Source of the DNA: Streptomyces sp. WMMC500
GTDB taxonomy: Bacteria; Actinomycetota; Actinomycetes; Streptomycetales; Streptomycetaceae
DNA length: 64,000 nt
NCBI RefSeq assembly: GCF_027497195.1
Contig: NZ_CP114905.1
Location: 2,838,001 to 2,902,000, forward strand
Direction of reading: 5' to 3'
The translations under genes and the position numbers were made by a program. The notes beneath the pieces were generated by a model. The model was given only the letters and a program-made list of their open reading frames with translations. It did no database searches and was not told where the DNA came from. The number at the start of each line of letters is the position of its first letter. The first letter of the stretch is position 1. Of the stretch, positions 38,628 to 55,536 are shown piece by piece.

Positions 38628-38931
38628 CGCTCGTTCGAGCGCTTGACCTACACTTGACCTCGGCCGGGCGTGGGAACGGACCTGCAACGGCGGCAGAGCG
38701 GCCGGTGAACGGCCCGGTACGAGGACGGGACGCGGCGCCACCACTCCGATGCCCCCATGCCGCACGCGGGCAAACCTTGTTGATTTCCCGCCAGATCGGG
38801 GACCCAAACCACGTTCGCATTGTGACTTACGCGACCTCAGGCGGGTGCGGCCTGCACGTTCCAGCTCCGGGGGCGTAGCCTTGTTTTCCGCTGTCCATCA
38901 CCTTGTGAAGCGGAAGAGGGCGGTTGCCGCC
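38628..38931 (+). other. Leader region upstream of kgd
   Basis: About 300 bases without a supportable gene. It begins with CGCTCGTTCGAGCG (38628-38641), a palindrome right after the kinase stop, then two CTTGACCT-like blocks (38642-38660) that could hold a -35 element. From 38770 on it is noticeably AT-richer, as expected for a promoter and 5' leader. I could not fix the -10 box. Confidence 0.45.
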
Positions 38932-41900
38932 GTGTCGTCACAGTCCCCTAAGAGCAGCTCGTCGAGCGTCCGTACCGAAGAGCCCAGCCAGGGCCGGGAC
39001 CCTGCTGCCGCCTTCGGTCCCAACGAGTGGCTCGTCGACGAGATCTACCAGCAGTACCTCCAGGACCCCAACTCGGTGGACCGGGCCTGGTGGGACTTCT
39101 TCGCCGACTACAAGCCGGGCACCGCCGGCGAGAAGCGGGGACCGGCGACGCAGGAGGCGCAGCCGGCTCCCGCCGCGCCGCCGCCCCCCGCGGCCCAGGC
39201 CCCGGCCGCGCCGCCGCAGCAGGCACCCGCGCCCGCCGCGCCGCCCGCCGTCGACGGCCGGCCCGTGGCCCAGCCGCCGGCCCGGCCGGCGGCGCAGCCC
39301 GCGGCCACGCCGGCCGCCAAGCCCGCCGCCGCCGCGCCCGCCAAGCCCGCCGCGAAGCCCGCCGCCGGCAAGCCGGCCGCCGCGGAGCCCGCCGCCGCGC
39401 CCGAGGGCCCCGAGCTGGTCACCCTCCGGGGACCCGCCGCCGCCGTCGCCAAGAACATGAACGCCTCGCTGGAGCTGCCGACGGCCACCTCCGTCCGCGC
39501 CGTCCCGGTGAAGCTCCTCTTCGACAACCGCATCGTCATCAACAACCACCTGAAGCGCGCCCGCGGCGGGAAGGTCTCCTTCACGCACCTCATCGGGTAC
39601 GCGATGGTCCAGGCGATGAAGCTGATGCCGTCGATGAACCACTCCTTCGCCCAGAAGGACGGCAAGCCCACCCTGGTCAAGCCCGAGCACGTCAACCTGG
39701 GCCTGGCCATCGACCTGGTCAAGCCCAACGGCGACCGCCAGCTCGTCGTCGCGGCCATCAGGAAGGCCGAGACGCTCAACTTCTTCGAGTTCTGGCAGGC
39801 GTACGAGGACATCGTCCGCCGCGCCCGGGCCAACAAGCTCACCATGGACGACTTCACCGGGGTGACGTGCTCGCTCACCAACCCCGGCGGCATCGGCACC
39901 GTCCACTCCGTGCCGCGGCTGATGCCCGGCCAGTCGATGATCCTCGGGGTCGGCGCGATGGACTACCCCGCCGAGTTCCAGGGCACCTCCCAGGACACCC
40001 TGAACAAGCTGGGCGTCTCGAAGGTCATGACGCTCACGTCGACGTACGACCACCGCGTCATCCAGGGCGCCGCCTCCGGCGAGTTCCTGCGGATCATGCA
40101 CCAGTTGCTGCTCGGCGAGAACGACTTCTTCGACGAGGTCTTCAAGTCCCTGCGCATCCCGTACGAGCCGGTCCGCTGGCTCCGCGACATCGATGCCAGC
40201 CACGACGACGACGTCACCAAGGCCGCCCGGGTCTTCGACCTGATCCACTCCTACCGGGTCCGCGGCCACGTGATGGCCGACACCGACCCGCTGGAGTACA
40301 AGCAGCGCAAGCACCCCGACCTCGACGTCACCGAGCACGGCCTGACGCTCTGGGACCTGGAGCGGGAGTTCGCCGTCGGCGGGTTCGCCGGCAAGGCGAT
40401 GATGAAGCTGCGCGACATCCTCGGCGTGCTGCGCGACTCGTACTGCCGCACCACCGGCATCGAGTACATGCACATCCAGGATCCGAAGGAGCGCAAGTGG
40501 ATCCAGGAGCGGGTGGAGCGCCCGCATGACACGCCGGAGCGCGAGGAGCAACTGCGCATCCTGCGCCGGCTGAACGCCGCGGAGGCGTTCGAGACGTTCC
40601 TGCAGACGAAGTACGTCGGCCAGAAGCGCTTCTCGCTGGAGGGCGGCGAGTCCGTCATCCCGCTGCTGGACGCGGTCATCGACGCCGCCGCCGAGTCCCG
40701 CCTCGACGAGGTCGTCATCGGCATGGCGCACCGCGGCCGGCTCAACGTGCTGGCGAACATCGTCGGCAAGTCGTACGCGCAGATCTTCCGCGAGTTCGAG
40801 GGCAACCTCGACCCGAAGTCGATGCACGGCTCCGGCGACGTGAAGTACCACCTGGGCACGGAGGGCACCTTCACCGGCCTGGACGGCGAGCAGATCAAGG
40901 TCTCGCTCACCGCCAACCCCTCCCACCTGGAGGCCGTCGACCCGGTGCTGGAGGGCGTGGTCCGCGCCAAGCAGGACATCATCGGCAAGGGCGGCACGGA
41001 CTTCACCGTGCTGCCGCTGGCGCTGCACGGCGACGCCGCCTTCGCCGGCCAGGGCGTGGTGGCCGAGACGCTCAACATGTCGCAGTTGCGCGGCTACCGC
41101 TGCGGCGGCACCGTGCACGTCGTCATCAACAACCAGGTCGGCTTCACCGCCCCGCCGGAGTCCGCGCGTTCCTCGATGTACGCCACGGACGTGGCCCGCA
41201 TGATCGAGGCGCCGATCTTCCACGTCAACGGCGACGACCCCGAGGCCGTCGTGCGCGTCGCGCGGCTGGCCTTCGAGTACCGCCAGGCGTTCAACAAGGA
41301 CGTGGTCATCGACCTCATCTGCTACCGCCGCCGCGGGCACAACGAGGGCGACAACCCGCAGTTCACCAACCCGCAGATGGTCGAGCTGATCGACAAGAAG
41401 CGCTCGGTACGCAAGCTCTACACCGAGTCGCTGATCGGCCGCGGCGACATCACCATGGAAGAGGCCGAACAGGCGCTCCAGGACTTCCAGGGCCAGTTGG
41501 AGAAGGTCTTCACCGAGGTACGGGACGCCACCGAGACGCCCGCGCCGGCCGAGGTGCCGCCGCACGCGCTGCCCGGCTTCCCGGTGGCCGTGGAGACGGC
41601 CGTCTCCGAGGAGGTTGTCAAGCGGATCGCCGACTCCCAGGTCAGCCTGCCCGACCAGGTCTCGGTGCACCCGCGGCTGCTGCCGCAGTTGCAGCGCCGG
41701 GTGTCGATGGTCGAGGACGACGCCATCGACTGGGGCATGGGCGAGACGCTGGCGTTCGGCTCGCTGCTCATGGAGGGCACCCCGGTCCGGCTCGCCGGCC
41801 AGGACTCCCGCCGCGGCACGTTCGGCCAGCGGCACGCGGTGCTCGTCGACCAGAAGACCGGCGAGGACTACACCCCGCTGAACTACCTGGCCCCGGACCA

Positions 41901-42777
41901 GGCCCGCTACAACGTCTACGACTCGCTCCTCAGCGAGTACGCGGCGATGGGCTTCGAGTACGGCTACTCGCTGGCCCGCCCGGACTCGCTGGTGCTGTGG
42001 GAGGCGCAGTTCGGCGACTTCGTCAACGGCGCGCAGACCGTCGTCGACGAGTTCATCTCCTCCGCCGAGCAGAAGTGGGGCCAGTCCTCCGGCGTCGTGC
42101 TGCTGCTGCCGCACGGCTACGAGGGCCAGGGCCCCGACCACTCCTCGGCCCGGATCGAGCGGTTCCTGCAGCTCTCCGCGCAGAACAACATGACCGTCGC
42201 GATGCCCTCCCTGCCGTCGAGCTACTTCCACCTGCTGCGCTGGCAGGTCCACAACCCGCACCACAAGCCGCTCGTGGTCTTCACCCCGAAGTCCATGCTG
42301 CGGATGAAGGCGGCGGCGTCGCGGACGGACGAGTTCACCTCGGGCGGCTTCCGGCCGGTCATCGGCGACGACTCCGTCGACCCGGCGGCGGTCCGCAAGG
42401 TCGTCTTCTGCTCCGGCAAGGTCTACTACGACCTCGACGCCGAGCGGCAGAAGCGCGGCGCGCAGGACACGGCGATCATCCGGCTGGAGCGGCTCTACCC
42501 GCTGCCCGGCGCGGAGATCCAGGCGGAGCTGGAGCGCTACAGCGGCGCCGCGACGTTCGTCTGGGCCCAGGAGGAGCCGGCCAACCAGGGCGCGTGGCCG
42601 TTCATCGCGCTCAACCTGGTCGACCACCTGGACCTGATCATCGGCTCCGGGCCGGTGCCGAACGCCGACCGGCTGCGCCGGGTCTCGCGCCCGTCGTCGT
42701 CCTCCCCGGCGGTCGGCTCCGCCAAGCGCCACCAGGCGGAGCACGCCCAGTTGATGGCCGAGGTCTTCGACCTCTGA
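38932..42777 (+). CDS. kgd: Multifunctional 2-oxoglutarate metabolism enzyme (2-oxoglutarate decarboxylase / dehydrogenase E1 with succinyltransferase domain)
   Basis: A 1281-residue actinobacterial fusion. The N-terminal E1 signature is [20 protein letters not shown] (about residues 28-47). A long Ala/Pro linker follows, then the E2-type acyltransferase domain with the active-site motif [15 protein letters not shown]. The ThDP-dependent E1 region contains [37 protein letters not shown], the ThDP/Mg site [20 protein letters not shown] and [16 protein letters not shown], and a C-terminal [13 protein letters not shown]. It feeds the TCA cycle by converting 2-oxoglutarate towards succinyl-CoA or succinate semialdehyde, working with E3. 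Length matches Streptomyces homologues (about 1270). I chose GTG at 38932, giving VSSQSPKSS as in relatives; an upstream GTG at 38905 is also in frame. Confidence 0.95.
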
Positions 42778-42783
42778 GTCCCC

Positions 42784-42822
42784 GCGGGGGTACGGACCGG
42801 GCCGCCCGGTCCGTACCCCCGC
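42784..42822 (+). terminator. 17-pair hairpin terminator after kgd
   Basis: GCGGGGGTACGGACCGG (42784-42800) pairs perfectly with its inverse (42806-42822) over a 5-base GCCGC loop, 6 bases past the kgd stop. It is one of the strongest stems in the window. Confidence 0.88.
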
Positions 42823-42824
42823 GC

Positions 42825-42857
42825 AGAAGGGCCCCGCGCGATGCGCGGGGCCCTTCT
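42825..42857. terminator. Second hairpin, probably bidirectional
   Basis: AGAAGGGCCCCGCGC (42825-42839) pairs perfectly with its inverse (42843-42857) over a GAT loop. Placed between kgd and the convergent fxsT-like gene, it can insulate both. Together with the previous stem it forms a tandem terminator. Confidence 0.85.
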
Positions 42858-42898
42858 CGTCTGCGCGGCCCGGCTGTGCCTCCCGGCTGCCCGGAGCC

Positions 42899-45865
42899 CT
42901 AGACGGGCTGCGGCTCGAAGTCCCAGTACGGGCGCTCCCGGCGCCGCGAGGCCAGGGTGTGCGGGTGGTCGGCGCCCAGCGTCTCGCTGAGGTTCTGCAT
43001 CGCCTCCCGCTCGACCTTCTTCGCCTCCTGCGAACGGCGCAGCGACCGCAGGTCGTCCGCGAGCGCCATCATCGCCGACAGCGTCATGGGGTGCCGGGGG
43101 CCGAGGACCTCCTTGACGGTGTCGGCCGTCTGCCGGCTCAGCTCCTCGGCGTGGTCCGGGGAGTCCAGCCGGTTGCGGGCGGCGGCCGCGTTCAGCGCGC
43201 AGCCCAGCGTCCAGGGGTGCGTGGGACCGACGGCCGCGGTCATCCGGGTGAGCGCCAGCTCGGCGATCTCGGACGCCTCCTGCCATTCGCCGGTGGGCCA
43301 GAGGGCGAGCGCGACGTTGCCGAGGGTGCCGGCGGTGTACGGGTGCTGCTCGCCGAGCATGGCCTCGTACCGCCGGTGGACCGACTTGGCCAGCTCCCGG
43401 GCGCGGTGCAGGTCGCGGTGCTCGCGCAGGAAGGTGGAGTAGTCGGCCTCGACCATCAGGGTCTCGGGGTGCCTGGGGCCCTGCACCTGGGTGAACCGCT
43501 CCACCACGGACTCCATGGCGCGGTCCGCCTCGGCGAGCTTGCCCAGCCGGCGCATGCACAGCGCGAGGTTGTGCTCGGCCCGCAGCGTCTGCGGGTTGTG
43601 CTCGCCCATGATCTGCCGGTGCAGCGCGACGCTCCGCAGTTGCCGGGAGTGGGCCTCCTCGTAGCGGCCGAGGAGGCGGAGGATCCAGGCGTAGCGCGTA
43701 CCGGTGGCCATGGTCTGGTGGTGTCGTGTGCGCAGTCGCCGCTCCCGCTCGACGAGCACGGCGCGGTGGATCTCCAGCGCGTCCTCGTACCGGCCGAGCA
43801 GTGCGAGGGCGGAGGCGACGTTGCTGCGCAGCGACATGGTGCGGGGATGCTCGGCGCCGAGGAGGTCGGCGTACTTCTGCCGGACGTCGTCGAAGATCTC
43901 ACGCGCCGTCTGGTACTCACCCAGGCCCAGCAGTGCACCACCGAGACCGTTCCTGGCGGACAGCAGGTCGGGGTCCTCCTCGTCGCGCACCGGGCTCAGC
44001 ACGTCCACCAGCCGCCTGCCGACGGCCTCGGACTCGCGGTAGCGCCCGAGGTTGCGCAGCGCCTCGGCGTGCGAGTGCACGAGCGTGATCATCGAGCGGT
44101 GCGTGGGTTCGAGCCGGATGGTCCACGGAGCGAGCGTCAGCTCGCACATCTTCAGGGCGGCGCGGTACTCGCCGCGCTGGAGCAGATAGTTGATGCAGTT
44201 CAGGACGAGTTCCTGCACTGCGGGGTCGGCGCTCTCCAGCGCGCCGGCCGGCTCCAGATGCGGCAGCAGCTCGGCGTACCTCGCCCACTCCCGCGTGTCC
44301 GTGGGACGGCGGGGGTCGGCTGCCGCGAGGATCCGGCAGGCGGTCGCCGACATCGCCTCCCGCTCGTCCTCAGGGAGATCACCCCGCAGGAAGCGGTGAT
44401 ACAGACGGTGCATTTGAACCTTTTCGACCTCGGTCTCCGGCGAAGGGTCGGTGAGGTAGTCGATCGTCACCGCGGTGGATTCCGACAGACGGCGCAGGGC
44501 GGAGTGCCAACTGATGGGATCGCCGGCCAGCTCCGCCAGATGCCTCGGCAACTGGTCGCTGCGCTCGACGATGCGGGAGACCGGAATACTGTCCGGGGAG
44601 AAGAGCGCGAACAGGTTGAGCATCGAGGCAGCCGCCGGGGTCTTCTCCCGCATCCCGTTCAGCGTTATCGACCAGCTCGTCAGGAAGCCCATCGGATAGT
44701 CGGAGCCGATGCTGATGCCGACCTTGCCGGGCTCCTTCTCGCGCAGCAGCTCGATGTAGTCCGCCGGCGCCATCGTGCTGGAGTCGAGCCACGCAGCGGT
44801 CTGGCTGAGCACCAGCGGCAGGTCCTGCACCGCCTCGGCGAGCCCGTCCGCCTCGGTCTCGGTCAGCCGGGGCGCGCGGCGGAGCGCGAAGGCGGTGGAC
44901 TCCGCGCGGGTGAAGTGCGGGACCTCGATCTCGTCGGCGCCGCCGCTGACGGCCCAGTCGCGGGTGCGGGTGGTGATGAGCACGTGCCCGTCGCCCTCGG
45001 GGACGATGTCGTCGAGCAGCTCCATCTCGTCGGCGCTGTCGAAGACCAGCAGCCAGCGGCGGTACGGGCGGCCGGTGCGCAGCGCCTCGCGGACCCGGCG
45101 GACCCGGTCGCCGATGTTGTTGCCGACGGGGAGGTTGAGCCGTAGGGAAAGGTCGGCGAGCTGCTCGCGGGCCGTCATGCGGTAGGTGGCGTTGACGAAC
45201 CAGACGACGTCGTAGTCGCTGCCGAACCGGTGGGTGTACTCGATGGCGATCTGGCTCTTGCCGACGCCGGAGATCCCCGAGAGCGCGATCCGGGCGCCCT
45301 GGCCGTCACCGGCGGACCCGCTGGCCAGAGCGCCGTGCAGGCGCTCCAGGATGGCGTCGCGGCCGGTGAAGCGGTAGTTGCGGCGGGGGGCGTTGAAGAC
45401 GACCGACGGGTCGTTGGGGAAGCGCGGGGCGCGCTCGGGCTCGCGGTCCGGGCGGACCGGGGTGTCCGGGTTGATGCCCAGCCGGGTGAGGATACGGCGT
45501 CTGGCCTCGCCGGTGCCCAGGTCACGCAGGTCGACGGGCGCCAGGGCCGCCGCCGCGGTCGGCATTGCGGTGGCCACCGTGGCGGCGGCGAACCGGTGCG
45601 CGTGCTGCGGGATGACCGTGCGCAGCGCGTCGTTCCACTCGTCCTCGCTGCGGGGGCCCAGACCGAAGTACCAGTCGTCGAGGACGAGCAGGATGCGGTC
45701 GGGCGCCTCCAATAACCCCGTCAGCTCGTCGACCAGCGGCCGGTCGCGCGCCGGGTTCCAGCGCAGCATCGCGGTGGGGTGTCCGAGCAGTTCGAGCTGA
45801 TGGGCGATCCAGGCCGCCCACGGGCGGTTGAACCCCGCGTAACTGATGCTGATGGGTTCGGCCAT
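42899..45865 (-). CDS. fxsT: TIR-like/NB-ARC/TPR protein of the FxSxx-COOH system (FxsT type)
   Basis: A 988-residue STAND-class protein. Residues 1-130 look like a TIR-type domain (ISISYAGFNRPWAAWIAHQL, RILLVLDDWYFGLGPRSEDE). An NB-ARC ATPase follows: P-loop ALSGISGVGKSQIA (about 194-207), Walker B RWLLVFDSADEMEL and HVLITTRTRDW. From about residue 560 on there are some ten tetratricopeptide-like repeats with AEHPRTMSLRSNVASALALL-type units. STAND proteins are signal-gated switches; TIR domains often act as NADases or adaptors in bacterial immunity. It sits downstream of the radical SAM gene (67 bases), the standard place for FxsT. Whether its TIR is catalytic is not readable here. Confidence 0.88.
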   Translation of the reverse strand: MAEPISISYAGFNRPWAAWIAHQLELLGHPTAMLRWNPARDRPLVDELTGLLEAPDRILLVLDDWYFGLGPRSEDEWNDALRTVIPQHAHRFAAATVATAMPTAAAALAPVDLRDLGTGEARRRILTRLGINPDTPVRPDREPERAPRFPNDPSVVFNAPRRNYRFTGRDAILERLHGALASGSAGDGQGARIALSGISGVGKSQIAIEYTHRFGSDYDVVWFVNATYRMTAREQLADLSLRLNLPVGNNIGDRVRRVREALRTGRPYRRWLLVFDSADEMELLDDIVPEGDGHVLITTRTRDWAVSGGADEIEVPHFTRAESTAFALRRAPRLTETEADGLAEAVQDLPLVLSQTAAWLDSSTMAPADYIELLREKEPGKVGISIGSDYPMGFLTSWSITLNGMREKTPAAASMLNLFALFSPDSIPVSRIVERSDQLPRHLAELAGDPISWHSALRRLSESTAVTIDYLTDPSPETEVEKVQMHRLYHRFLRGDLPEDEREAMSATACRILAAADPRRPTDTREWARYAELLPHLEPAGALESADPAVQELVLNCINYLLQRGEYRAALKMCELTLAPWTIRLEPTHRSMITLVHSHAEALRNLGRYRESEAVGRRLVDVLSPVRDEEDPDLLSARNGLGGALLGLGEYQTAREIFDDVRQKYADLLGAEHPRTMSLRSNVASALALLGRYEDALEIHRAVLVERERRLRTRHHQTMATGTRYAWILRLLGRYEEAHSRQLRSVALHRQIMGEHNPQTLRAEHNLALCMRRLGKLAEADRAMESVVERFTQVQGPRHPETLMVEADYSTFLREHRDLHRARELAKSVHRRYEAMLGEQHPYTAGTLGNVALALWPTGEWQEASEIAELALTRMTAAVGPTHPWTLGCALNAAAARNRLDSPDHAEELSRQTADTVKEVLGPRHPMTLSAMMALADDLRSLRRSQEAKKVEREAMQNLSETLGADHPHTLASRRRERPYWDFEPQPV

Positions 45866-45932
45866 GCGACCGTCTCCCTCCCACAGTCCCGGCAGGCCGT
45901 ATCTCTCGCACAGTATCCCATCTGGCGGCCCG

Positions 45933-47174
45933 TCAGCTCACGCACGGCGGTCCCGCGGGCACTCTTCGCTCATCCGCCACCGCGGCGTCCAGCCGGTGGG
46001 CGACGTGCCGGATGAGCCGTTCCAGATCGGCGCAGTACACGGACGGGTTGCGGAACCCCTCGCCGGCCCGGAAGCGGTGCGCGTAGTTGCCGCCGCCGCA
46101 GACCCGGACCACCGGGCAGCGCCGGCACTGCTCGGCCAGCGCCCACAGGCCCAGTTGCCGGGCGGCGACGCCGGGGTGGTTCAGCGCCTCGTCGAAGGAG
46201 TTGCGGAAGACGTCGAGCCCCGTGCCCGCCGCACCCTCGTAGACGGACTTGAGCGAGTCGATCTGCTCGATGGCGCCGTCGGTCTCCACCACGACCGCCG
46301 TGACCGGCGAGAGGCCCACGGCCTCCGTGCCGCTCGGCCGGCCCAGCAGCAGCCCGAGGATCTCGGTGAACAGCCGCACCCGCGGCGACGGCCTGGGCAG
46401 GTCCCACCACAGGTCGAACAACTCGCAGAGCCAGTCGCCGTACGGGGCGGGGCCGCGGCTCGGCACGGGGGCCGGCGGCGCCGACCAGTTGGCGTGCGGC
46501 AGCAGGAAGTTGACGACCGGCGGCCCCAGCGAGCACAGCGAGTCCAGCACCGCGGCCGGCGAGGCGGTGACGTCGACCGTGCACAGGATGCCGCCATAGC
46601 TCCCCGGATGCCGCCGCAGCAGCCGCGCCGCGCGCTCCAGAGCGGGCCAGGCGGGTCGCCCGGCGTGGTCGACGCGGTGGCGGTTCAGCTCGGGCGTGCC
46701 GCCGTCGGCGCTCAGGCCGACCCCGATGCCGTCGGCGGCGAGCGTCGCCAGCGCGGACTCGGTGAGCAGCGTGCCGTTGGTCTGCACGACGGCGGTGACG
46801 GTGCAGTCGACCGGCAGCGCCGCGCGCACCATCGCCGTCTGCCGGACCAGCGACGCGGCGCCGGCGAGCAGCGGCTCGCCGCCGTGCAGCACGAGGCTGA
46901 TCCGGCGCAGCCCGTGGGCGCGTACGTGCTCGGCGATGCGCTGGGCGGTGCGGCGGGTGACGGCCTCCGGCATCCGGCCGGGACGCTCGCGCCAGCTACT
47001 GTCGGCGCCGTGGTAGACGTAGCAGTAGGTGCACGAGAGGTTGCACCGGCTGTGCACCTTCAGGATGAACTGCCGGAACGGCACCGCCGGAACCCCGGTG
47101 GCGCGCAGCCGGCCGACGTCCAGCAGCCGACCGGGCCAGGGCACCTCCTCCGCGCCTGTGTCTCCGTAGTCCAT
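45933..47174 (-). CDS. fxsB: FxsB-like radical SAM/SPASM peptide maturase
   Basis: A 413-residue radical SAM enzyme. The Cys motif is C44-x3-C48-x2-C51 (SRCNLSCTYCYVYHG), binding the SAM-coordinating 4Fe-4S cluster; LVLHGGEPLLAG and GVGLSADGGTPELNRHRVDH are family landmarks. The C-terminal SPASM-like region has QCRRCPVVRVCGGGNYAHRF and a later VYCADL for auxiliary clusters. FxsB enzymes form three-residue cyclophane cross-links in ribosomal peptides. I chose ATG 47174 with GGGGAG upstream; ATGs at 47231 and 47240 lack a ribosome site. It lies between the small precursor gene and the TIR/NB-ARC/TPR gene. Confidence 0.88.
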   Translation of the reverse strand: MDYGDTGAEEVPWPGRLLDVGRLRATGVPAVPFRQFILKVHSRCNLSCTYCYVYHGADSSWRERPGRMPEAVTRRTAQRIAEHVRAHGLRRISLVLHGGEPLLAGAASLVRQTAMVRAALPVDCTVTAVVQTNGTLLTESALATLAADGIGVGLSADGGTPELNRHRVDHAGRPAWPALERAARLLRRHPGSYGGILCTVDVTASPAAVLDSLCSLGPPVVNFLLPHANWSAPPAPVPSRGPAPYGDWLCELFDLWWDLPRPSPRVRLFTEILGLLLGRPSGTEAVGLSPVTAVVVETDGAIEQIDSLKSVYEGAAGTGLDVFRNSFDEALNHPGVAARQLGLWALAEQCRRCPVVRVCGGGNYAHRFRAGEGFRNPSVYCADLERLIRHVAHRLDAAVADERRVPAGPPCVS

Positions 47175-47378
47175 GCGGCTCCCCGGCTCCCCCGAGTCCG
47201 GGCGGTGACGAACCACCGCCCCTGAATGCATGGCGCACAAGTCACACGGGTGAAACCAGACAGAAGCCCAACTGACTGTTTCTGTACGGAATCTGCCGCG
47301 ATCCGGCCGCCCGGCTTCGTCGGCGGGCTTGAGGTGGCGTCGGCCGGAGCGTGCGCCCTGACGTTCTCGACCGGCGGG

Positions 47379-47600
47379 TCAATTGCCGCCGGGCTTGGGG
47401 GGCTCGTTGTCGAAATAGGCCCCGGCATCGTCGTCGGAAGGCCAGTTGCGGAGCAGGTGAGCGACGGTTCCCGCGAGTACCGGCGGCTCGCCCCGGGCGG
47501 CCACCGCGTACACGTCGACGTCGCTGAAGTCGGGCAGACGGACCGCCGAGCCTGCGGCTGACAGTGTCCCGTCCGGCTTCGCCGACAGGGGGTTCTCCAC
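47379..47600 (-). CDS. fxsA: Short ribosomal peptide precursor (FxsA position, non-canonical C-terminus)
   Basis: A 73-residue peptide starting with GTG, which has an excellent GGAGGAG site 6 bases upstream; an in-frame ATG at 47654 has none. The body includes AVRLPDFSDVDVYAVAARGE and VLAGTVAHLLRNWPSDDDAG, as in FxsA leaders. It ends AYFDNEPPKPGGN, so the usual C-terminal FxSxx is missing. Possible cross-link sites are F25-S26-D27 and Y62-F63-D64-N65; aromatic-x-x motifs are what triceptide maturases modify. It lies 204 bases upstream of fxsB, in the same direction. The product and its fate are unknown. Confidence 0.82.
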   Translation of the reverse strand: MENPLSAKPDGTLSAAGSAVRLPDFSDVDVYAVAARGEPPVLAGTVAHLLRNWPSDDDAGAYFDNEPPKPGGN

Positions 47601-47666
47601 GCTGTTCTCCTCCGGAAGGGTGTGAGAGTCCTTCCCCGAACAGTCGTGCAACAAAACGGACCCGCG

Positions 47667-50600
47667 TCAGTCGCCCGCTTCGAGCGTACGGATCTGCTCG
47701 CGGGTCAGCGCCGCCCCCGCGCTCTGGGTCTGCTCCGCCCGGCTCCACTGCTCCCAGGCGTCCCGGTACGCCCTGAGCGCCACCTGGCGCCCCGCCGTCG
47801 GCTCCAGCATCTGCCCGCGCCGGTGGTGGGCGCGTGCGGCGTCCGCGGGGTCGCCGGCCTGCTCCGCCAGGAGCGCCGCGCGCCGGTAGCAGTCGGCCGC
47901 CCGCTCCTGCCGCTGCCGGAACTCGGTCCGTATGTCGAGGAGCAGTTGCACGTCCCCCAGCTCCAGCCAGGCCTGCGCGCGCACGCGCGCGGGCGCGTCG
48001 TCCTCGCGGGCGGCCCGGTCGAGCACCCACTCGGCCTCGTACAGGTCGGTGCGGGTGCCGGACGCCTCGTAGCGCAGCCGCAGGGCCCTGCCGAAGAGCA
48101 ACTGCCGCCGCGGCAGGTCCGGATGCCGCTGCGGCGTCTCCGCCAGCACCTCGCGCAGCACGGGCACCGCCCGGCCGCGCAGCCCGGTGTCGTCCGGGGT
48201 CAGCCGGGCGCGGCGCAGCAGCAGCTCGCCGTGCTCGGTCAGCACCTCGCCGTACAGCGCCGCGCCCGGCGGCAGCAGCCGCAGCGCGTCCGCCAGCCAC
48301 TCGTCGGCCTCGACCAGGAGCCCGTCGGCCCCGCCGCGGCCGAACTCCGCGACGCGCACCTGGGCCTTGCGGCGCAGGCTCTCGGCCTGCAGCCGGTAGT
48401 CGTCGAGGGTGACGGCCAGCCGCCCGGCCCGGTCGAGCGCGGCCAGCGCGAGACCCGCGCCGGCGTCGCCGGCCGCGGTCGTGTGAGCCTCCGCCAGGTC
48501 GAGCAGCGCCTCGCACTCCAGCCGGCGCAGCTCCGGCCCGCCCTCCATGCGCAGCAGGTCGACACCGGTACGCAGATCGGCCGCCGCGCGCAGCCCGTAG
48601 GCCCGGGTCTCGTCCACCGTGTGCTCCGCCTGCGCGCGGCCCAGAGTGACCCGGCCGCGGGCGAGGAACAGCCGCGCGGGCACCAGCTCCTCGTCGGGCC
48701 AGCCGGCCAGCAGCTCGTCTATCGTCTCCTCGGCCTCGTGCAGCGCCGCGTCGTCGCCGGTCAGAGAGTGCAGCCGGCGCAGCACCTCGGCGAGCAGGCC
48801 GCCGCGCTCGCGCCGGGCGGCGTGCGTGGTGACCAGGGCGCGGCTGCGGCGCAGTTGGGTGGCGGAGGCGCGCAGCGCCGCGACGGCCTGCTCGTGCTCG
48901 CCGTCGGCGACGCGCTCGCGGGCCACCTCCCACATCACCTCGGCGTAGGTGAGCCGTTCGCGCAGCGACGGGGCATCCGCCGGCGGCCCGCCACCGGCCG
49001 CGGGCGTCCCCGAGCCGTCCGCGGCCAGGGCGCTCCGGGCCCACTGCTCGGCCTCCGCCAGCGCGTCCGGCTCGCGCAGCCGCTGCCAGTGCAGGAGCAG
49101 CGCCCGCGCGAGCAGCCCCTGCTGCGCGGTGTCCCGCTCCTCGACGACGGCGCGGCGCAGGGCTCGTACGGCGTCCAGGAGGTCGCGGACGCTGCGGGTG
49201 TCCTCGTACTGCCGCAGCAGCTCCGGGCCGCCCGCCGTGGCCGGCCCGCGGAAGGCGGGCTGGAAGGCGCGCAGCACCTGCTCGGAGACGCGCGCGAACT
49301 GGTCGGGGACCTTGCCCCCGCCGAGTTCGGGCTCGCGGTCCTCGCCGGAGAGGTACGCGACCGCGACGGCCGGGAAGTTGCGCGCGCCGTGCCCGAAGGT
49401 CCGCTCGATGTAGAGCGAGCAGTGCTTGAGCACGAGCGCCGCCTCGCCGTGGCTGAGCCGGCGCAGCAGCAGCTCCCGCACGCCCGGGCGGAAGTCGAAC
49501 CAGGGGTCGTCGCCGACGGGTTCGCGCGCCGGGTCGCGCGCGGTTCCGGGCACCGGCTCGCGCGCCACGACCAGCTCGCTGAGCAGGATCTCGGCGGTCT
49601 CCGCGGGCCCGGTGTCGGGGAACAGCGCGCGCTGCACCAGCCGGATGACGGGCAGCACCAGCGGCACGGCCGCCAGGTGGATGGCCAGCAGCCGGGCCGC
49701 CGGCGAGGCCGTCGCGTCGAACGCGGCGAGCGTGGCCGCCGGGTCGGGGCGCACGTCGGCGGGCCGGACCGCCGCGGCCGGGACGGCCGCCGCTTCCGTG
49801 GCGGACCGGCGCACCCAGCCGGCGGCGCCGGGCAGCGACAGACCCTCGCCGGCGGACAGCAGCCGGGCCCACGTGCCGACGGCGCCGGGCTCGGGCGCGA
49901 GCACGGGCAGCGGGCGGGCCCCGGCCGGGGGCACGTCGCCGCGGGTGCCGGGGCGGAAGTCGAGCGTCGGGTACGGGCCGGGGTGCCGGACGAGCAGCCC
50001 CGGCAGCGCGGCGAACGGCATCTCGCGCCACCGCCGGTGCGGCAGCGGCTGGACGACGGCGACGGGGGCGGTACCGAGCCAGCCGTGCAGCATCCGCTGC
50101 ATCCGGCCGTCGCGCCACATCGGGCCCGCGCAGTCGCTGAGCACGAGTGTCAGCCGCTGCCCGCCGGGGTCGTGCAACTGGCCGGCGTCCTGCAGCATCG
50201 ACGGCCGCCCCGGCTCGCCGGTGCAGCCGACGCCGCCGTCCGGGAGCGGGTGCAGGCGGTGCACGGTGACGTCGCGGAACGCGCCGGAGCGCTCGGCGAC
50301 CGTACGCAGGTCCTCCAGCAGCCGTCCCCACACCTCCATGGCGGGCGAGGCGTCCATGAGCAGTTGGAGCGTGGCGCGCCGCCGGGGCGTCCGCAGCACG
50401 GGGATGACCAGGTCGGCCCGTGCGCTGACCTCCGCGGTCTCCTCCTCGTCCAGCTCGCCGGGCGCCACGGCCGCGACCCGCGGCTGGTAGCGCCGCAGGG
50501 GGCGCAGCGCGCGCTGCAGCGGCACGAGGGCGGGCAGCGCGGCCGGCTCCGGCACGCCGACGCGGCCGACCTGCCGGTACGCCGGGGTGTCCACGGCATC

Positions 50601-50972
50601 GCGCACCGGCGTACGCGGGGAGAGTCCCGGGCCCGCCGCGAGCCCCACGCGCCGCTCGGGCGCGGCGTGCGCCCCCGCACCTGTCGCGTCGGCGGCGTTT
50701 GCGCCCTCGGCCGGCGCGGGACCGGGGCCTTCGGGAGCGTCGGCGGCGTCGGGAAAAGTGGCTGATTTCGTGCGGCTCGCCGATCTCGCCCCGCCGGCGC
50801 GCGGGTCCCCGCCACCCGTCGCCTCGGCGCTGCGCGCCAGCTCCTCCGCGAGCCAGAGGACGTCGGCGAGGCCGCGCGCGTCCGGCGGCAGCCCAGCCGC
50901 GAGGAGCCGGCCCACCAACTCCTCGGCCTTCTCCTGCCCGCCGTCGCCCCCGCGCGCCGCCATCGCGCTCAC
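47667..50972 (-). CDS. SAV_2336-type vWA-like domain and helical-repeat protein
   Basis: An 1101-residue protein. After an Ala/Gly-rich N-terminus, a von Willebrand A-like region starts with LQLLMDASPAMEVWGRLLED. The MIDAS motif DxSxS reads DASPA, so the second Ser is lost; LTLVLSDCAGPMWRDGRMQR follows. The middle matches the SAV_2336-related region (ILLSELVVAREP, FRPGVRELLLRRLSHGEAAL). The last 500 residues are TPR-like helices with LAEAEQWARSAL-type units. It pairs with the MoxR-type ATPase upstream: its GTG overlaps that gene's stop (GTGA). MoxR/vWA pairs act as chaperones or as gatekeepers in predicted conflict systems. An ATG at 50963 is an alternative start. Confidence 0.83.
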   Translation of the reverse strand: MSAMAARGGDGGQEKAEELVGRLLAAGLPPDARGLADVLWLAEELARSAEATGGGDPRAGGARSASRTKSATFPDAADAPEGPGPAPAEGANAADATGAGAHAAPERRVGLAAGPGLSPRTPVRDAVDTPAYRQVGRVGVPEPAALPALVPLQRALRPLRRYQPRVAAVAPGELDEEETAEVSARADLVIPVLRTPRRRATLQLLMDASPAMEVWGRLLEDLRTVAERSGAFRDVTVHRLHPLPDGGVGCTGEPGRPSMLQDAGQLHDPGGQRLTLVLSDCAGPMWRDGRMQRMLHGWLGTAPVAVVQPLPHRRWREMPFAALPGLLVRHPGPYPTLDFRPGTRGDVPPAGARPLPVLAPEPGAVGTWARLLSAGEGLSLPGAAGWVRRSATEAAAVPAAAVRPADVRPDPAATLAAFDATASPAARLLAIHLAAVPLVLPVIRLVQRALFPDTGPAETAEILLSELVVAREPVPGTARDPAREPVGDDPWFDFRPGVRELLLRRLSHGEAALVLKHCSLYIERTFGHGARNFPAVAVAYLSGEDREPELGGGKVPDQFARVSEQVLRAFQPAFRGPATAGGPELLRQYEDTRSVRDLLDAVRALRRAVVEERDTAQQGLLARALLLHWQRLREPDALAEAEQWARSALAADGSGTPAAGGGPPADAPSLRERLTYAEVMWEVARERVADGEHEQAVAALRASATQLRRSRALVTTHAARRERGGLLAEVLRRLHSLTGDDAALHEAEETIDELLAGWPDEELVPARLFLARGRVTLGRAQAEHTVDETRAYGLRAAADLRTGVDLLRMEGGPELRRLECEALLDLAEAHTTAAGDAGAGLALAALDRAGRLAVTLDDYRLQAESLRRKAQVRVAEFGRGGADGLLVEADEWLADALRLLPPGAALYGEVLTEHGELLLRRARLTPDDTGLRGRAVPVLREVLAETPQRHPDLPRRQLLFGRALRLRYEASGTRTDLYEAEWVLDRAAREDDAPARVRAQAWLELGDVQLLLDIRTEFRQRQERAADCYRRAALLAEQAGDPADAARAHHRRGQMLEPTAGRQVALRAYRDAWEQWSRAEQTQSAGAALTREQIRTLEAGD

Positions 50973-52009
50973 CGCGGCCTGTTGATGGGCCGCATCAGCT
51001 CCTCGGTGACGCGCCGGGCGGAGCCGTCCGCCTGATCCCAATCGGCCTGCCGGGTCAGCTCGATGGCGTTGAGCAGTTGATCCACGGCCCGTACGTCGCC
51101 GGGTCCCGCGGCCAGGAAGCGGTCGATCAGCTCCGTGAACCGCTCGTCGTCGCCCTCGGGGAAGTGCGCCCGCACCATGCCCGTCAGCCGCGCCCGGTCC
51201 GGCACCGGCAGTTGCAGCTCGATACAGCGGCGGCGCAGCGGCGCCGGGAACTCGCGCTCGCCGTTGCTCGTGAGCACGATGAACGGGAAGGCGCCGCAGC
51301 GCACCCGGCCGCCGCGCACGGGCACTTTCGTACCGTCGTCGCTGAGCACCTCGACCACCGGCGCGCGGTCGGCGATCCGCTCCAGCTCGGGGATCGTGAA
51401 CTCGCCCTCCTCCAGCACGTGGAGGAGATCGTTGGGCAGGTCGATGTCGCTCTTGTCCAGCTCGTCGACGAGCAGCACGCGCGGGCGCGCGGAGGGCAGC
51501 AGCGCGGTGCCCAGCGGGCCGAGGCGGACGTAGCGCCCGATGCCGCCGCCGGGCTCCTCGGCGGCGCCCGCCGCGTCCGCGGCGCCGGCCCGGCCGGCGG
51601 CCCGTTCGAGCTGGGCGTCCTGGAGGCGGCCGATGGCGTCGTAGGCGTACAGGCCGTCGCGCAGGGTGCTGCGGCTGACGATCGGCCAGGTCAGGACCCG
51701 GCCGAGGCCCAGCTCGTACGCCACGGAGTGCGCGAGCGTGCTCTTGCCGCTGCCGGCCTGCCCGGTGACGAGCAGCGGGCGGCGCAGATAGAGCGCGGCG
51801 TTGACCATCTCGCACTCGCGGGTGCTGGGCCGGTGGTGGCTGGCCTCGCGGCGGCGCTGGCCGAGCCTCCGCTCGGAGGAGGGCTCCAGCGCGACCGGCG
51901 GTGGGACCGTTGGACCGCCGTCGAATTCTCGCCAGGGTGGCGGTGCCGGCAGTCTGTCCATGCCGTCGTGGGGGGCGCCGGTGCCTCGGTAGATGAGCCA
52001 CTCGCTCAC
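50969..52009 (-). CDS. MoxR-type AAA+ ATPase
   Basis: A 346-residue AAA+ protein. Walker A is VTGQAGSGKS (residues 81-90), Walker B VLLVDELDKSDIDLPNDLLH, sensor-1 FIVLTSNGEREFP and an arginine-finger-like PAPLRRRCIELQLP. This matches MoxR-like ATPases that pair with vWA proteins, here encoded just downstream with a GTGA overlap. The start is GTG (VSEWLIYRG) after AAAGGGG. The upstream gene is the trypsin/VMAP-like protein 264 bases away, suggesting a separate promoter. The N-terminal 60 residues are a Pro-rich extension. Confidence 0.88.
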   Translation of the reverse strand: MSEWLIYRGTGAPHDGMDRLPAPPPWREFDGGPTVPPPVALEPSSERRLGQRRREASHHRPSTRECEMVNAALYLRRPLLVTGQAGSGKSTLAHSVAYELGLGRVLTWPIVSRSTLRDGLYAYDAIGRLQDAQLERAAGRAGAADAAGAAEEPGGGIGRYVRLGPLGTALLPSARPRVLLVDELDKSDIDLPNDLLHVLEEGEFTIPELERIADRAPVVEVLSDDGTKVPVRGGRVRCGAFPFIVLTSNGEREFPAPLRRRCIELQLPVPDRARLTGMVRAHFPEGDDERFTELIDRFLAAGPGDVRAVDQLLNAIELTRQADWDQADGSARRVTEELMRPINRPR

Positions 52010-52273
52010 GTCGTAACCCCTTTGTCGCCGACCGGGCAGCAGGCTTGCCCCACTGTCTGCCCGGCGACGGACGAGGGCAACCCTCACGGGGGTAAGAGGC
52101 TAGCCGGGTGCGCTGACGTCGGGTGCCGAATCGGCCAATCCGCGTGGTGGCGGGCCGGTTTCGTCCAACCGCACACATGGTGCGCGACGTTCGCCCCCGG
52201 CGCGTGCCGACGCCCGCGCGCCGTTCACCCGTTCACCGCCCGGCTCACCCGTTCAGCGCCACCCGTACGCCGT
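52010..52273. other. Spacer between protease and AAA+ genes
   Basis: 264 bases with no supportable gene. It has a stem CCGGGCAG/CTGCCCGG (52032-52039 with 52057-52064) in the leader of the ATPase gene. Near 52219-52276, four copies of CCGTTCA-like repeats run into the stop codon of the protease gene. A promoter for the ATPase/vWA pair may lie here. Confidence 0.4.
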
Positions 52274-54520
52274 TCAACCGCCCGCCCCGATCGCGTCGTC
52301 CGCGTCGTCGTAGAGCAGGATCACGTCCGCCGCGCACCCCCGTCCGGCCTCGAGCGCCTCCCGGCGCACCTCGTGCAGCCGCTCCGGCAGATCCCGCACG
52401 ACCGTTCCTGCGCCGTCCGTCAGCAGCGCCGCGAGCTCCTCGTGGTACGCCGCGCACTCCGCGCCGCACTCGTCGCCCTCGTGGCCCCCCGCACGCCACA
52501 GCGCCACCGCCGTGCCCTCGTCGAGCAACTGCCCCACGACCGCCGCCCGCCCGCCGCCCAGCGCGTGGCAGAACACCGGCACCCCGCCGTCGCCGGCCTC
52601 GCGCCCCCAGCCCGGCGGTTCGGCCCGTACCAGCCGCTGCCGCGGCGCCCGGCTCATCCGGCGCCACCGGTCGCGCCACAGCGGCTCCGGCTCCGGCCCG
52701 GCGCGCGCGGCGTCCCGGTGCACCACGGGCCGTACCGTGCCGGCCGGCGGGCGGGCCGCGGTCGCCCGGCCGGACACCGGCAGCTCCCAGCGGTACGTGG
52801 GCTGCGCCTGCCGCTCCTCCGGCAGCGCCACCTCCAGCCGCACCCGCGTCTGCGCCTCCGCGTCGGCGCCGAGCAACTGCGGCGCCAGCGCCGCGAGCAC
52901 CTGCTCCTCCGCCTCCTCGAACGACCCGCCGGCGTACGACTGGTCGAGCGCGACGTGCTCCCACTCCCCCTTGCCGTAGCCGCGCCGCACGGTCCAGTTG
53001 TAGCGGGGCACGGACGGCGCGGCGGGGTCGAGGAACGGCAGTTTGTCGAAGGTGACGAGGACGCTCACGGGCGCGCGCCGCACCGCGCGGATCTCCCGCC
53101 GCTGGCGCGGCGTCAGCTCACCCGAGCGCTCGGCGACCCACGCTTCGAGGGACTCGACGGCGGTACGCGCCGCCGCGCCGTCCCCCGCGGCGGAGCCGGC
53201 GCCGGGGCCGGCTCCGATGTCCGCGGCGGCCTCGCGGGCCACGAGCTTGAGGTACAGCAGCATGTCGCGCAGCGCGCGCTCCGGCGCGGCCTGCCGGTGC
53301 AGCAGCCCGTGCCCGTCGCGCCAGTCGCGCAGCCGCCGGGCGCCCAGGGGGCGGCCCTGGATGTCGAGCACGTGGTGCACCAGCCGCTCGACGACCTCCG
53401 GGTCGCGCGGCGCGGGCAGGTCGGCGAGCCGATACAGCGCGCTGAGCCGGTCGAGCGCGCCCCAGGCGCCGTACCGCGGCGGGCCCAGCGCGCGCTGGAG
53501 GTCGGTCCAGGAGGTGCGTTCGTCGTCGATGCCGTGGTGGCGGTGCCAGTGCCAGGCGTCGTGCAGCCGCATCAGCTCGCGGTACGGCTCGGGGCCCAGC
53601 CCCTCCGCGCCGGGCAGCAGGTGCTCGGGCGAGAGCGCCCGCAGCTCGTCGAGGGACACGGCGGTGCCGCCGCCGGTGCCGCTGCGGTAGCGGGCCTTGA
53701 CGACGCCGACGACCTCGCCGCGGCCGAGGTGCAGCACGGGCCCGCCGGAGGCGCCCTTCCGGATCGGGGTGGGGGTGCCGAGCAGGATCTGCTGCCCGTT
53801 GCGGCCCGCGAACTCGGCGCTCAGCAGGGCCGCTTCGACCTCGTCGCCGTTGCCGGCGGCGGCGCGCCCGTGGGCGCTGAGGAGTACGGCCTGGTCGAGG
53901 AAGTCGTCGTAGCGGTCGCCGAGCCAGACGGGTTCGCTGCCGGCCGGCGGCCGGGCGGGGGTCCCCCGCTCGGGGCCGGACGGAGCACCGGGGCGGGCGT
54001 CGGCCCGGGCGCCGGGCTGGACACCGATCTGAGCGGCGTGGAGAGCGGCGTACGGGAACCCGTACTGCGCCTCGCCCCGCGGGCTCTCACTCGCCCCCGC
54101 AGCCGCACGCGTCGCGTCGGCCCGCGCCGGCAACAGCCGTACCAGGGCGAGATCCGGCCCTACCTGCATCACCGCCTCGGCGAACGTCTCGTCCCGCACC
54201 TCGGGATCGCGGCCCATCCGCGCGGCCGTGCCGTCGGGCGAGGGCATGCTGTACTCCACCCGGCCCGGCACCGTACGCCCGCCCACGACCACGCCGATCA
54301 GCTCGCCCGGCGCCGTACCGCGCCGCCAGCCGTCGGGGTGGACGAAGACGTGCGCGCAGGTCAGCACCCACTCCGGCGCGACGAGGAACCCGCTGCCCCA
54401 CAGGGACCCGTCGTCGGAGCCGGGCGCCGCCCGGATGTCGACGGTCGCCGCTGCGGCGAGTTTGCAGAGCTGGTAACGCGCGTAGTCCGCGCCCTCACTG
54501 CTCTCGATCGGAACCCTCAT
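52274..54520 (-). CDS. Trypsin-like serine protease with long VMAP-like C-terminal region
   Basis: A 748-residue protein without a signal peptide. The N-terminal chymotrypsin-fold protease has a full triad: H57 in WVLTCAHVFV, D123 in GPDLALVRLL and S258 in IRKGASGGPVLHLG. Residues about 290-748 form a helical and beta-rich region (RLVHHVLDIQGRPLGARRLR, VLVTFDKLPFLDP, RYNWTVRRGYGKGEWEHVAL, VVGQLLDEGTAVALWRAGGH) that resembles VMAP (vWA-MoxR-associated) proteins. Cytoplasmic trypsin-like proteases of this type occur in predicted ternary conflict systems with MoxR and vWA proteins. Its ATG overlaps the stop of the Trypco1-like gene (ATGA). The VMAP assignment is from memory of the pattern. Confidence 0.82.
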   Translation of the reverse strand: MRVPIESSEGADYARYQLCKLAAAATVDIRAAPGSDDGSLWGSGFLVAPEWVLTCAHVFVHPDGWRRGTAPGELIGVVVGGRTVPGRVEYSMPSPDGTAARMGRDPEVRDETFAEAVMQVGPDLALVRLLPARADATRAAAGASESPRGEAQYGFPYAALHAAQIGVQPGARADARPGAPSGPERGTPARPPAGSEPVWLGDRYDDFLDQAVLLSAHGRAAAGNGDEVEAALLSAEFAGRNGQQILLGTPTPIRKGASGGPVLHLGRGEVVGVVKARYRSGTGGGTAVSLDELRALSPEHLLPGAEGLGPEPYRELMRLHDAWHWHRHHGIDDERTSWTDLQRALGPPRYGAWGALDRLSALYRLADLPAPRDPEVVERLVHHVLDIQGRPLGARRLRDWRDGHGLLHRQAAPERALRDMLLYLKLVAREAAADIGAGPGAGSAAGDGAAARTAVESLEAWVAERSGELTPRQRREIRAVRRAPVSVLVTFDKLPFLDPAAPSVPRYNWTVRRGYGKGEWEHVALDQSYAGGSFEEAEEQVLAALAPQLLGADAEAQTRVRLEVALPEERQAQPTYRWELPVSGRATAARPPAGTVRPVVHRDAARAGPEPEPLWRDRWRRMSRAPRQRLVRAEPPGWGREAGDGGVPVFCHALGGGRAAVVGQLLDEGTAVALWRAGGHEGDECGAECAAYHEELAALLTDGAGTVVRDLPERLHEVRREALEAGRGCAADVILLYDDADDAIGAGG

Positions 54521-55038
54521 ACCGGTGCGGACGCCGTGGCAGACGCGCCGGATGCACCAGATGCAGCCGTATCGGGCGCGGTGGCCGAGGCGGCGTGGGA
54601 CGCGTCCCCGGAGGGCTCGGCCGACCGCGAACCGGGCTGCCAGGTGAGGGTGACCGACAGTTGCGCCGCGGTGTTCGCGTCGGCGAGCAGCGCGATCGCC
54701 TTCCCCGTCCCCGCGGAGATCTCCACGCCGAACGTCACGCTCACCTCGTGCGGCGCGGCGGCCGCGGTCGCCGCCCGTACGGAGGCGGCCACTCCGCCGA
54801 CCAGCGGCGCGAAGCCGGCGAGCCGGGCGGTCAGCCGGCCCCAGTCGGCGACGTCCTGGGGTTCGTCGTCGGCGTCCGGGTCCCACGCGGCCGCGGGGTC
54901 GGCGTCCTCGGGGGCACCCACGGGCGCCGGGACCCCCGCCCGCGTCTCCGCCGCGACCCGCTCGTCGAGCGGGGTCGCCCGGACCCAGACCTCGGTGCCG
55001 TCCGGCAGAGTCACGCGCTGCGGCAGATTACTGCTCAT
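54517..55038 (-). CDS. Trypsin-co-occurring (Trypco1 / CU044_2847-type) protein
   Basis: A 173-residue protein. The N-terminus LPQRVTLPDGTEVWVRATPL and the C-terminal HEVSVTFGVEISAGTGKAIA then LLADANTAAQLSVTLTWQPG fit the CU044_2847 / trypsin-co-occurring domain 1 pattern. The middle is an acidic low-complexity linker. The family is found next to trypsin-like proteases in conflict-type loci, where it may be a substrate, scaffold or sensor. It is the first gene of the minus-strand island and overlaps the protease gene by ATGA. The ATG has GGGGGAA upstream. Confidence 0.82.
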   Translation of the reverse strand: MSSNLPQRVTLPDGTEVWVRATPLDERVAAETRAGVPAPVGAPEDADPAAAWDPDADDEPQDVADWGRLTARLAGFAPLVGGVAASVRAATAAAAPHEVSVTFGVEISAGTGKAIALLADANTAAQLSVTLTWQPGSRSAEPSGDASHAASATAPDTAASGASGASATASAPV

Positions 55039-55186
55039 CCGATTCCCCCGACTACGCTGGGTGCCCGATGGACCGACATTAGTCCGCCGACCGCCGCCCC
55101 GCGACGGTGCCCGCCGCTGTGCGCCGGTCGTCCTCGGTGGTGAGCGATACTGAACCGGTCACTTTCCCCCTTCCGGAGCACCCACC

Positions 55187-55372
55187 ATGTACTTCACCGA
55201 CCGCGGCATCGAGGAGCTGGAGAAGCGGCGCGGCGAGGAGGAGGTCACCTTCGAGTGGCTTGCCGAGCAGTTGCGTACGTTCGTCGACCTGAACCCGGAG
55301 TTCGAGGTTCCGGTCGAGCGGCTGGCCACCTGGCTCGCCCGCCTCGACGACGAGGACGAGGACGACGACTGA
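55187..55372 (+). CDS. DUF6104-type small acidic protein
   Basis: A 61-residue protein: MYFTDRGIEELEKRRGEEEV, then TFEWLAEQLRTFVDLNPEFE and RLATWLARLDDEDEDDD. The sequence fits the short actinobacterial DUF6104 family as I recall it; its function is unknown. The ATG follows CCGGAG. It is divergent from the Trypco1-like gene (148 bases). The stop codon lies within a 10-base tandem repeat (GACGACGACT twice, 55361-55380), so slippage there would change the C-terminus. Confidence 0.78.
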   Translation: MYFTDRGIEELEKRRGEEEVTFEWLAEQLRTFVDLNPEFEVPVERLATWLARLDDEDEDDD

Positions 55373-55455
55373 CGACGACTGACGACGGCCAGGGCGCGCG
55401 GCGGCGAGCGGTGGCGGGCGGATCGGCAAGGCCTGTACTTGACTTCCCGGCACCG

Positions 55456-55490
55456 CGATATATCGTGTCTTGACAGAGACGCGATATGTT
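55456..55490 (+). promoter_or_regulatory. Palindromic operator and -35 box upstream of the DUF4097/PadR pair
   Basis: The perfect palindrome CGATATATCG (55456-55465) is followed by a consensus TTGACA (55470-55475) and a second half-like GCGATATG (55481-55488). PadR regulators often bind such ATAT-containing palindromes in their own promoter, and a PadR gene is second in this operon. I cannot assign a good -10 box at the expected spacing. Confidence 0.55.
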
Positions 55491-55536
55491 GCGTTGGGTG
55501 TGAGCGCTCGCCAGAGCCCGAGTCAGGAGGCCGTGG

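Follow-up and report, generated by a model that had tools for sequence, protein, structure and literature searches.

The 64-kb window analyzed here (64,000 nucleotides from Streptomyces sp. WMMC500, whose genome is a single contig of 8.6 Mb) carries, on the minus strand from position 42899 to 55038, seven consecutive genes in the same direction, in which the parts of a predicted VMAP-type conflict system are joined to a module for a putative cyclophane ribosomally synthesized and post-translationally modified peptide (RiPP). In transcription order, the genes encode a Trypco1 protein, a trypsin-like protease with a fused VMAP-C domain, a MoxR ATPase, a von Willebrand factor type A (vWA) protein, a short precursor, an FxsB-family radical S-adenosylmethionine (SAM) maturase, and a TIR-NB-ARC-TPR protein of the STAND (signal transduction ATPases with numerous domains) class. 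All seven genes proposed in the first-pass annotation of this DNA were confirmed at their positions and on their strand, and the features are as follows.

54517..55038, minus strand: first gene, Trypco1 protein of 173 amino acids (PF19493, 1.2e-14; CU044_2847 family).
52274..54520, minus strand: trypsin-like serine protease fused to VMAP-C (PF13365, 5.9e-11; PF20028, 5.5e-30).
50969..52009, minus strand: MoxR-type AAA+ ATPase (PF07728, 2.5e-6; Walker A motif GQAGSGKS).
47667..50972, minus strand: vWA (SAV_2336-type) co-chaperone of 1101 amino acids (NF041121, 2.2e-114).
47608..47650, minus strand: 43-nt stretch 5' of the precursor gene, identical in the window and loci L060, L154, and L155.
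47379..47600, minus strand: predicted cyclophane-RiPP precursor of 73 amino acids (NF041709, 42.7 bits, under the cut-off).
47406..47414, minus strand: F-D-N, the tripeptide predicted to be crosslinked; relatives have Y-[E/D]-D in the alignment.
45933..47174, minus strand: FxsB-family radical SAM/SPASM maturase, short form (TIGR04269, 436 bits; cut-off 370).
42899..45865, minus strand: TIR-NB-ARC-TPR STAND protein (NF040586, 822 bits with a cut-off of 300; TIR_2 PF13676, 1.9e-13; PF00931; PF13424).

The two overlaps that had been noted are real, an ATGA joining the Trypco1 and protease genes at 54517-54520 and a GTGA joining the MoxR and vWA genes at 50969-50972. With the start codons chosen, the remaining gaps measure 264 nt (protease-MoxR), 66 nt (vWA-precursor), 204 nt (precursor-maturase), and 67 nt (maturase-TIR). 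The run is flanked by two plus-strand genes, one for 2-oxoglutarate dehydrogenase (38749-42777) and one for a DUF6104 protein (55187-55372), and its best-matching named loci are those of Streptomyces sp. CNH099 and S. aculeolatus DSM 41644, with a maturase identity of 89%.

The association of the peptide module with the VMAP genes was evaluated in 121 genomes of the genus. FxsB, as the FxSxx-type maturase is called in NCBIfam naming, occurred in 77 of these genomes with 121 matches, of which two partial ones below the cut-off were dropped and 119 were kept; four duplicate loci were also removed before counting. The 119 loci comprised 45 of a long form and 74 of the short form. The loci are phylogenetically related. 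For those whose upstream sequence reached at least 5.2 kb, a vWA gene on the same strand was located inside this 5.2-kb distance in 38 of 69 short-form loci compared with 0 of 44 long-form loci; such a gene was missing from 31 of the 69 short-form loci and present in 38 of 66 nonduplicate loci on named contigs. VMAP-C gave 187 matches in 101 of the 121 genomes, and a calculation assuming one vWA gene per VMAP-C match predicted about 0.03 vWA neighbors by chance in 69 loci. The order VMAP-C, MoxR, vWA, radical SAM, and NB-ARC was seen in 71/71 complete unique loci, and TIR and NB-ARC domains followed downstream in 77/77 unique vWA-coupled loci having at least 4 kb of downstream sequence, the NB-ARC domain being confirmed in all 77 with a profile lacking TPRs. 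Furthermore, distances of the maturase, vWA, MoxR, VMAP-C, and NB-ARC proteins correlated with r values of 0.83 to 0.95 in 30 genomes with complete loci, and with r values of 0.79 to 0.94 after the rpoB DNA distance was partialled out (p of 0.002 for each pair, the minimum attainable with 499 shuffles). The co-location and the co-divergence beyond rpoB ruled out chance neighborhood. The first-pass annotation had treated the Fxs and VMAP parts as one unit and had named co-occurrence at chance level as the result that would speak against it; co-occurrence was clearly above that level, and this part of its interpretation stands.

Other arrangements of these genes were also observed. A VMAP system was present about 8 kb upstream in the long-form locus L134 and 8 to 9 kb upstream of the second copies of the tandem loci L050, L051, and L176. 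The vWA gene lay 10 kb downstream in L210, and downstream on the opposite strand in L049, in L071, and in five loci from outside Streptomyces (L195, L198, L199, L214, and L215). The latter five (from Solihabitans, Dactylosporangium, Actinocorallia, and Actinomadura) have an inverted NB-ARC/vWA/MoxR block downstream of FxsB, with VMAP-C in all except L214, which is another arrangement of the same parts. In the tandem modules, a second YxD precursor and a short FxsB are found about 4.6 kb behind the first (L050/L088 and L051/L082, in the same two genomes, and L176; compare L093/L106), and in L050, L051, and L176 separate MoxR-like and TIR-NB-ARC matches lie behind the second unit, which suggests a duplication into a two-peptide system.

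The VMAP part of the window has the features of a VMAP-ternary system, with VMAP, MoxR, and vWA genes in that order, a VMAP-C domain, and Trypco1 beside a trypsin-type VMAP protein. The His, Asp, and Ser motifs of the protease (LTCAHVF, DLALV, and GASGGP) are all present in the window protein, and those of His and Ser were both retained in 69 of 72 relatives by motif counts. Likewise, the N-terminal MoxR motifs of VMAP systems, WxhapG and PsWRxa, appear in the window as WLIYRG and PPWREF, and both were found in 75/75 coupled loci with a MoxR match. The vWA protein contains both aspartates of a metal ion-dependent adhesion site (MIDAS), in the MIDAS-like motifs DASPAM and SDCAGPMW; a Pfam search of this protein yielded no domain above the cut-off and no TPR match.

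The peptide part begins with the precursor gene, whose start is most likely the GTG at 47600, preceded by GGAGGAG. The encoded peptide ends in AYFDNEPPKPGGN, a tail without FxSxx, so it is not an FxSxx-type precursor as had been implied in the first-pass annotation. Its sole NCBIfam match was the YxD-tail family NF041709, at 42.7 bits against a cut-off of 55, and the motif aligned with Y-x-D is F-D-N; thus, by score and by motif, the peptide falls outside NF041709 as curated. The precursor is conserved in four species, and comparisons of the window with the three others gave nonsynonymous divergence (dN) of 0.06 to 0.13 and synonymous divergence (dS) of 0.17 to 0.18, which supports its reading as a precursor; the L154-L155 pair (dN 0.060, dS 0.056) shows no sign of purifying selection.

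Among 43 unique precursors of the type to which the window belongs (type B, described below), the first motif position was Y in 36, F in 6, and H in 1, the second was E in 27, D in 13, G in 2, and A in 1, and the third was D in 39 and N in 4. The motif is succeeded by A, G, S, E, or T and then by P in 40 of the 43, and 22 precursors end exactly at the motif, 14 with ...EDAP and 5 with ...DDAP. The only peptides with N in the third position are those of the window (F-D-N), L060 (F-E-N), L154 (F-E-N), and L155 (F-D-N), which form one clade on the maturase tree (SH-aLRT support of 100). A crosslinked Y-F-D was considered as well and fits the window and L155; L060 and L154 read Y-F-E-N, and F-[DE]-N fits 4/4. 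In the part of PMC11002830 available to us, YxdB is described as joining Tyr C3 to Asp Cβ, and XncB and OscB as joining Phe C4 to Asn Cβ. Since known enzymes form both Tyr-Asp and Phe-Asn cyclophanes, a Phe-Asn link would, by analogy, be the natural prediction for the window peptide.

Upstream of the precursor, the 43 nt at 47608-47650 that are identical in the four species are conserved above the coding sequence behind them and hold GGAAGG...CCTTCC beside the ribosome-binding site. This leader had no unusual fold compared with shuffled sequences (z score of −0.20), and Rfam gave no match at gathering scores over 42800-55500; a conserved RNA element was rejected on these grounds.

The maturase starts at the ATG at 47174, contains CX3CX2C, and lacks a fused HExxH-like domain. 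Its gene leader has a perfect 8-bp hairpin at 47200-47221 (GGGCGGTG...CACCGCCC), and the leader as a whole has a slightly more stable fold than shuffled sequences, with a z score of −2.11 for 47172-47300 (5 of 200 shuffles as good) and −0.41 for 47172-47240. In the long form of FxsB (L108-L152), an HExxH-family domain is fused in 44 of 45 loci, but most have lost the HExxH motif, which only 4 of the 45 open reading frames retain. An NB-ARC-TPR match was located upstream in eight short-form loci, L065, L075, L087, L090, L099, L101, L102, and L105; the last six of these have a precursor-like open reading frame ending in ...HAASLIWPWPL or similar, that of L065 ends in LVLPWWF, and none is listed for L075.

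The vWA-coupled loci were sorted into two types by tail patterns that were written after the tails had been looked at. Type A combines an FxS/FxN tail that matches or approaches the FxSxx type (for example, LWGFNSAF and NAFDSGVA) with an HExxH protein. Type B, to which the window belongs, carries the tail AxY[ED]D[AGS]P and lacks an HExxH gene, and its loci on named contigs are all from Streptomyces. Across the 77 unique vWA-coupled loci, an HExxH-family domain was encoded behind the maturase in 33/33 of type A and 0/35 of type B; the remaining nine loci, with absent or odd precursor calls, comprised six with and three without it. The HExxH motif was intact in all 39 coupled loci having the domain, which lay in a frame different from that of the maturase, as a separate gene, in 38 of the 39 and in the same open frame in L058. 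The tail and the HExxH domain are associated with a Fisher value of 3.6e-20, which is not independent evidence because the tail type changes a single time on the maturase tree. No HExxH-family match occurred within the 20-kb stretch around the window maturase (L053), and the single TIGR04267 match of the genome is about 2.5 Mb away, inside a second VMAP system.

The last gene of the run encodes the TIR-NB-ARC-TPR protein. The catalytic glutamate of TIR domains sits four residues after a tryptophan. At this position, all 78 aligned rows, including the window, have leucine, and 0/78 have glutamate; a TIR NADase was therefore rejected, and, judged by its residues, the window TIR is probably a docking domain instead. 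NB-ARC was found in 112 of the 119 FxsB loci of the genus (on any strand of fetched stretches of up to 20 kb), a count unchanged with a profile lacking TPRs, and the vWA profile in only 43 of 119. The STAND protein is thus the constant partner of the peptide, accompanying it with or without the VMAP parts, and would on this pattern serve as the peptide receptor.

From the parts, their order and co-inheritance, the tail/enzyme correspondence, the protease triad motifs, and the missing TIR glutamate, we infer that the locus is a VMAP-type MoxR-vWA ternary conflict system of type B with a built-in cyclophane-peptide module, a reading to which, together with the steps that follow, we give an even chance. 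The radical SAM enzyme would tie the tail aromatic to the residue at i+2 (Phe-Asn in the window, mostly Tyr-Asp in relatives), forming a three-residue cyclophane. The VMAP, MoxR, and vWA proteins would rest in an off-state complex, in which the middle part of the VMAP protein would sense, as proposed for this variable part by Kaur et al. (2020; PMC7159879, in the part of the paper available to us). Upon an infection signal, MoxR would remodel the vWA complex, and the VMAP protease, freed or activated, would remove the leader and/or cut cell targets. The released cyclophane peptide would then be the ligand of the TIR-NB-ARC-TPR protein, which would assemble and relay the signal in a putative defense role. 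The cluster contains one recognized peptide-modifying enzyme, and the VMAP protease, being the sole recognized peptidase in a cluster lacking HExxH, is the best candidate for a peptide releaser gated by MoxR/vWA. A tentative extension is that the peptide carries immune messages inside the cell: the radical SAM enzyme would mature it, the infection-gated VMAP protease would cut it loose, and the STAND receptor would read it, with the type A hydroxylase adding an optional chemical tag; this version, which we hold to be unlikely, would imply two peptide "dialects," the hydroxylatable FxS/FxN tails and the nonhydroxylated YxD/FxN tails.

Several observations weigh against the type B mechanism. A trypsin-like Asp was not consistently present at the residues preceding the catalytic Ser (by residue counting), and cleavage after Arg or Lys is therefore not predicted for the VMAP protease. 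This protease also occurs in type A and so is not a specific replacement of HExxH. The tail/HExxH correspondence, resting on one switch, may reflect history rather than function. The distant HExxH gene of the genome could act in trans, and, since oxidative cleavage of the peptide backbone has been reported for one HExxH enzyme pair (PMC12636437, in the part covered), by analogy the HExxH protein may have a releasing role in type A. Finally, the PADLOC defense models gave no specific match for the six larger proteins; the maturase matched only viperin models, over part of the radical SAM domain, and MoxR only weakly matched ATPase models.

The cyclophane peptide could also be the effector itself, a self-toxic or membrane-active product released by the protease after sensing and causing abortive infection, with the STAND protein only controlling it. 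This is consistent with the proposal of a "peptide toxin or signal" in the available part of Kaur et al. (PMC7159879), and with the 78/78 TIR domains lacking the catalytic glutamate and the absence of a Pfam domain in the vWA protein, which leave no obvious enzymatic toxin save the protease. However, type B precursors have a short, acidic core, which in 22 of 43 ends at the motif, unlike membrane-active peptides, and no immunity protein or exporter was recognized among the seven genes; we regard an effector peptide as doubtful. Quite improbable is a peptide that is produced constitutively and serves the complex as a cofactor or in redox or metal handling, like other protein-derived cofactors, instead of being released as a signal, as the maturase is the only redox/metal enzyme among the seven genes and MoxR has the motifs of the VMAP conflict class in 75/75 loci. 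Two independent modules kept together by shared regulation only, as might be thought from the existence of each alone (an upstream vWA gene is absent from 44/44 long and 31/69 short FxsB loci, and the VMAP-C matches outnumber the FxsB-coupled ones), are very unlikely in view of the identical gene order in 71/71 complete loci and the co-divergence beyond rpoB.

If the locus works as a type B system, it bears on the published model, in which a metallopeptidase releases the peptide (PMC7159879). The HExxH enzymes of this kind that have since been characterized are α-ketoglutarate-dependent hydroxylases, according to the covered part of PMC12636437, and type B does without HExxH; the identity of the peptide releaser therefore becomes a testable question. 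With one precursor, one maturase, one protease, and one STAND protein, type B is a simpler coupling and thus a good choice for reconstitution, and the clean split of tail motifs and enzyme sets offers a testable substrate/enzyme pairing.

The joint working of these parts was thought to be undescribed in the first-pass annotation; their coupling, in its general form, is already published. According to the part of Kaur et al. available to us (PMC7159879, including section 24), about 20% of actinobacterial VMAP-ternary systems have a peptide-processing module consisting of a small precursor, a zincin-like "metallopeptidase," and a radical SAM-SPASM enzyme for FxSxx tails, and the FxSxx type has a separate TIR-AP-ATPase-TPR gene downstream; the peptide is suggested to be a toxin or a signal, and the HExxH protein is taken for the releasing peptidase. 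The window shares with that system the VMAP-MoxR-vWA order, the trypsin domain and Trypco1, the small precursor, the FxsB-family radical SAM-SPASM maturase, and the downstream TIR-AP-ATPase-TPR gene. It differs in having neither an FxSxx tail nor an HExxH protein: its tail lies outside the four types named there (FxSxx, RxD, acidic, and FtsH-associated), and the cluster lacks the "metallopeptidase," which is named there as the module's core and whose absence the first-pass annotation did not mention. A literature search found no other paper joining FxSxx or radical SAM with VMAP, and, among the listings and the few passages covered, no paper recognized as describing the type B form (YxD-like tail, no HExxH, and the F-[DE]-N clade variant), which the supplementary data or figures of PMC7159879 may include.

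Compared with the YxD-tail RiPP/YxdB triceptide (NF041709; Sugiyama 2022, via the available part of PMC11002830), the window precursor aligns in leader and tail, with the aromatic tripeptide at the same place, and the maturase is of the FxsB family, to which YxdB is presumed to be similar; its score is under the curated cut-off, however, and Y-x-D becomes F-[DE]-N in the window clade. In the covered parts of PMC7159879 and PMC11002830, we found no mention of a link between YxD precursors and VMAP systems. The long-form FxsB systems (ChlB/ChlBH type, cited in the part of PMC12636437 available) share the homologous radical SAM/SPASM domain and an NB-ARC partner (44 of 45 loci), but have the fused HExxH-family domain in 44/45 and an upstream vWA gene within 5.2 kb in 0/44. 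The other VMAP system encoded in this genome (L244, G000:C1:386000-405900) has VMAP-C, MoxR, vWA, and NB-ARC-TPR in common with the window, and also encodes a Trypco-like protein and, in a neighboring open reading frame, a weak trypsin-like match (1.5e-4); its 20-kb stretch gave no radical SAM match. Unlike the window, this second system has its vWA domain fused to NB-ARC-TPR, an HExxH-family gene, and EAD2-VMAP-M0 in the VMAP protein, and it resembles the RxD/acidic type in the available account of Kaur et al. (PMC7159879).

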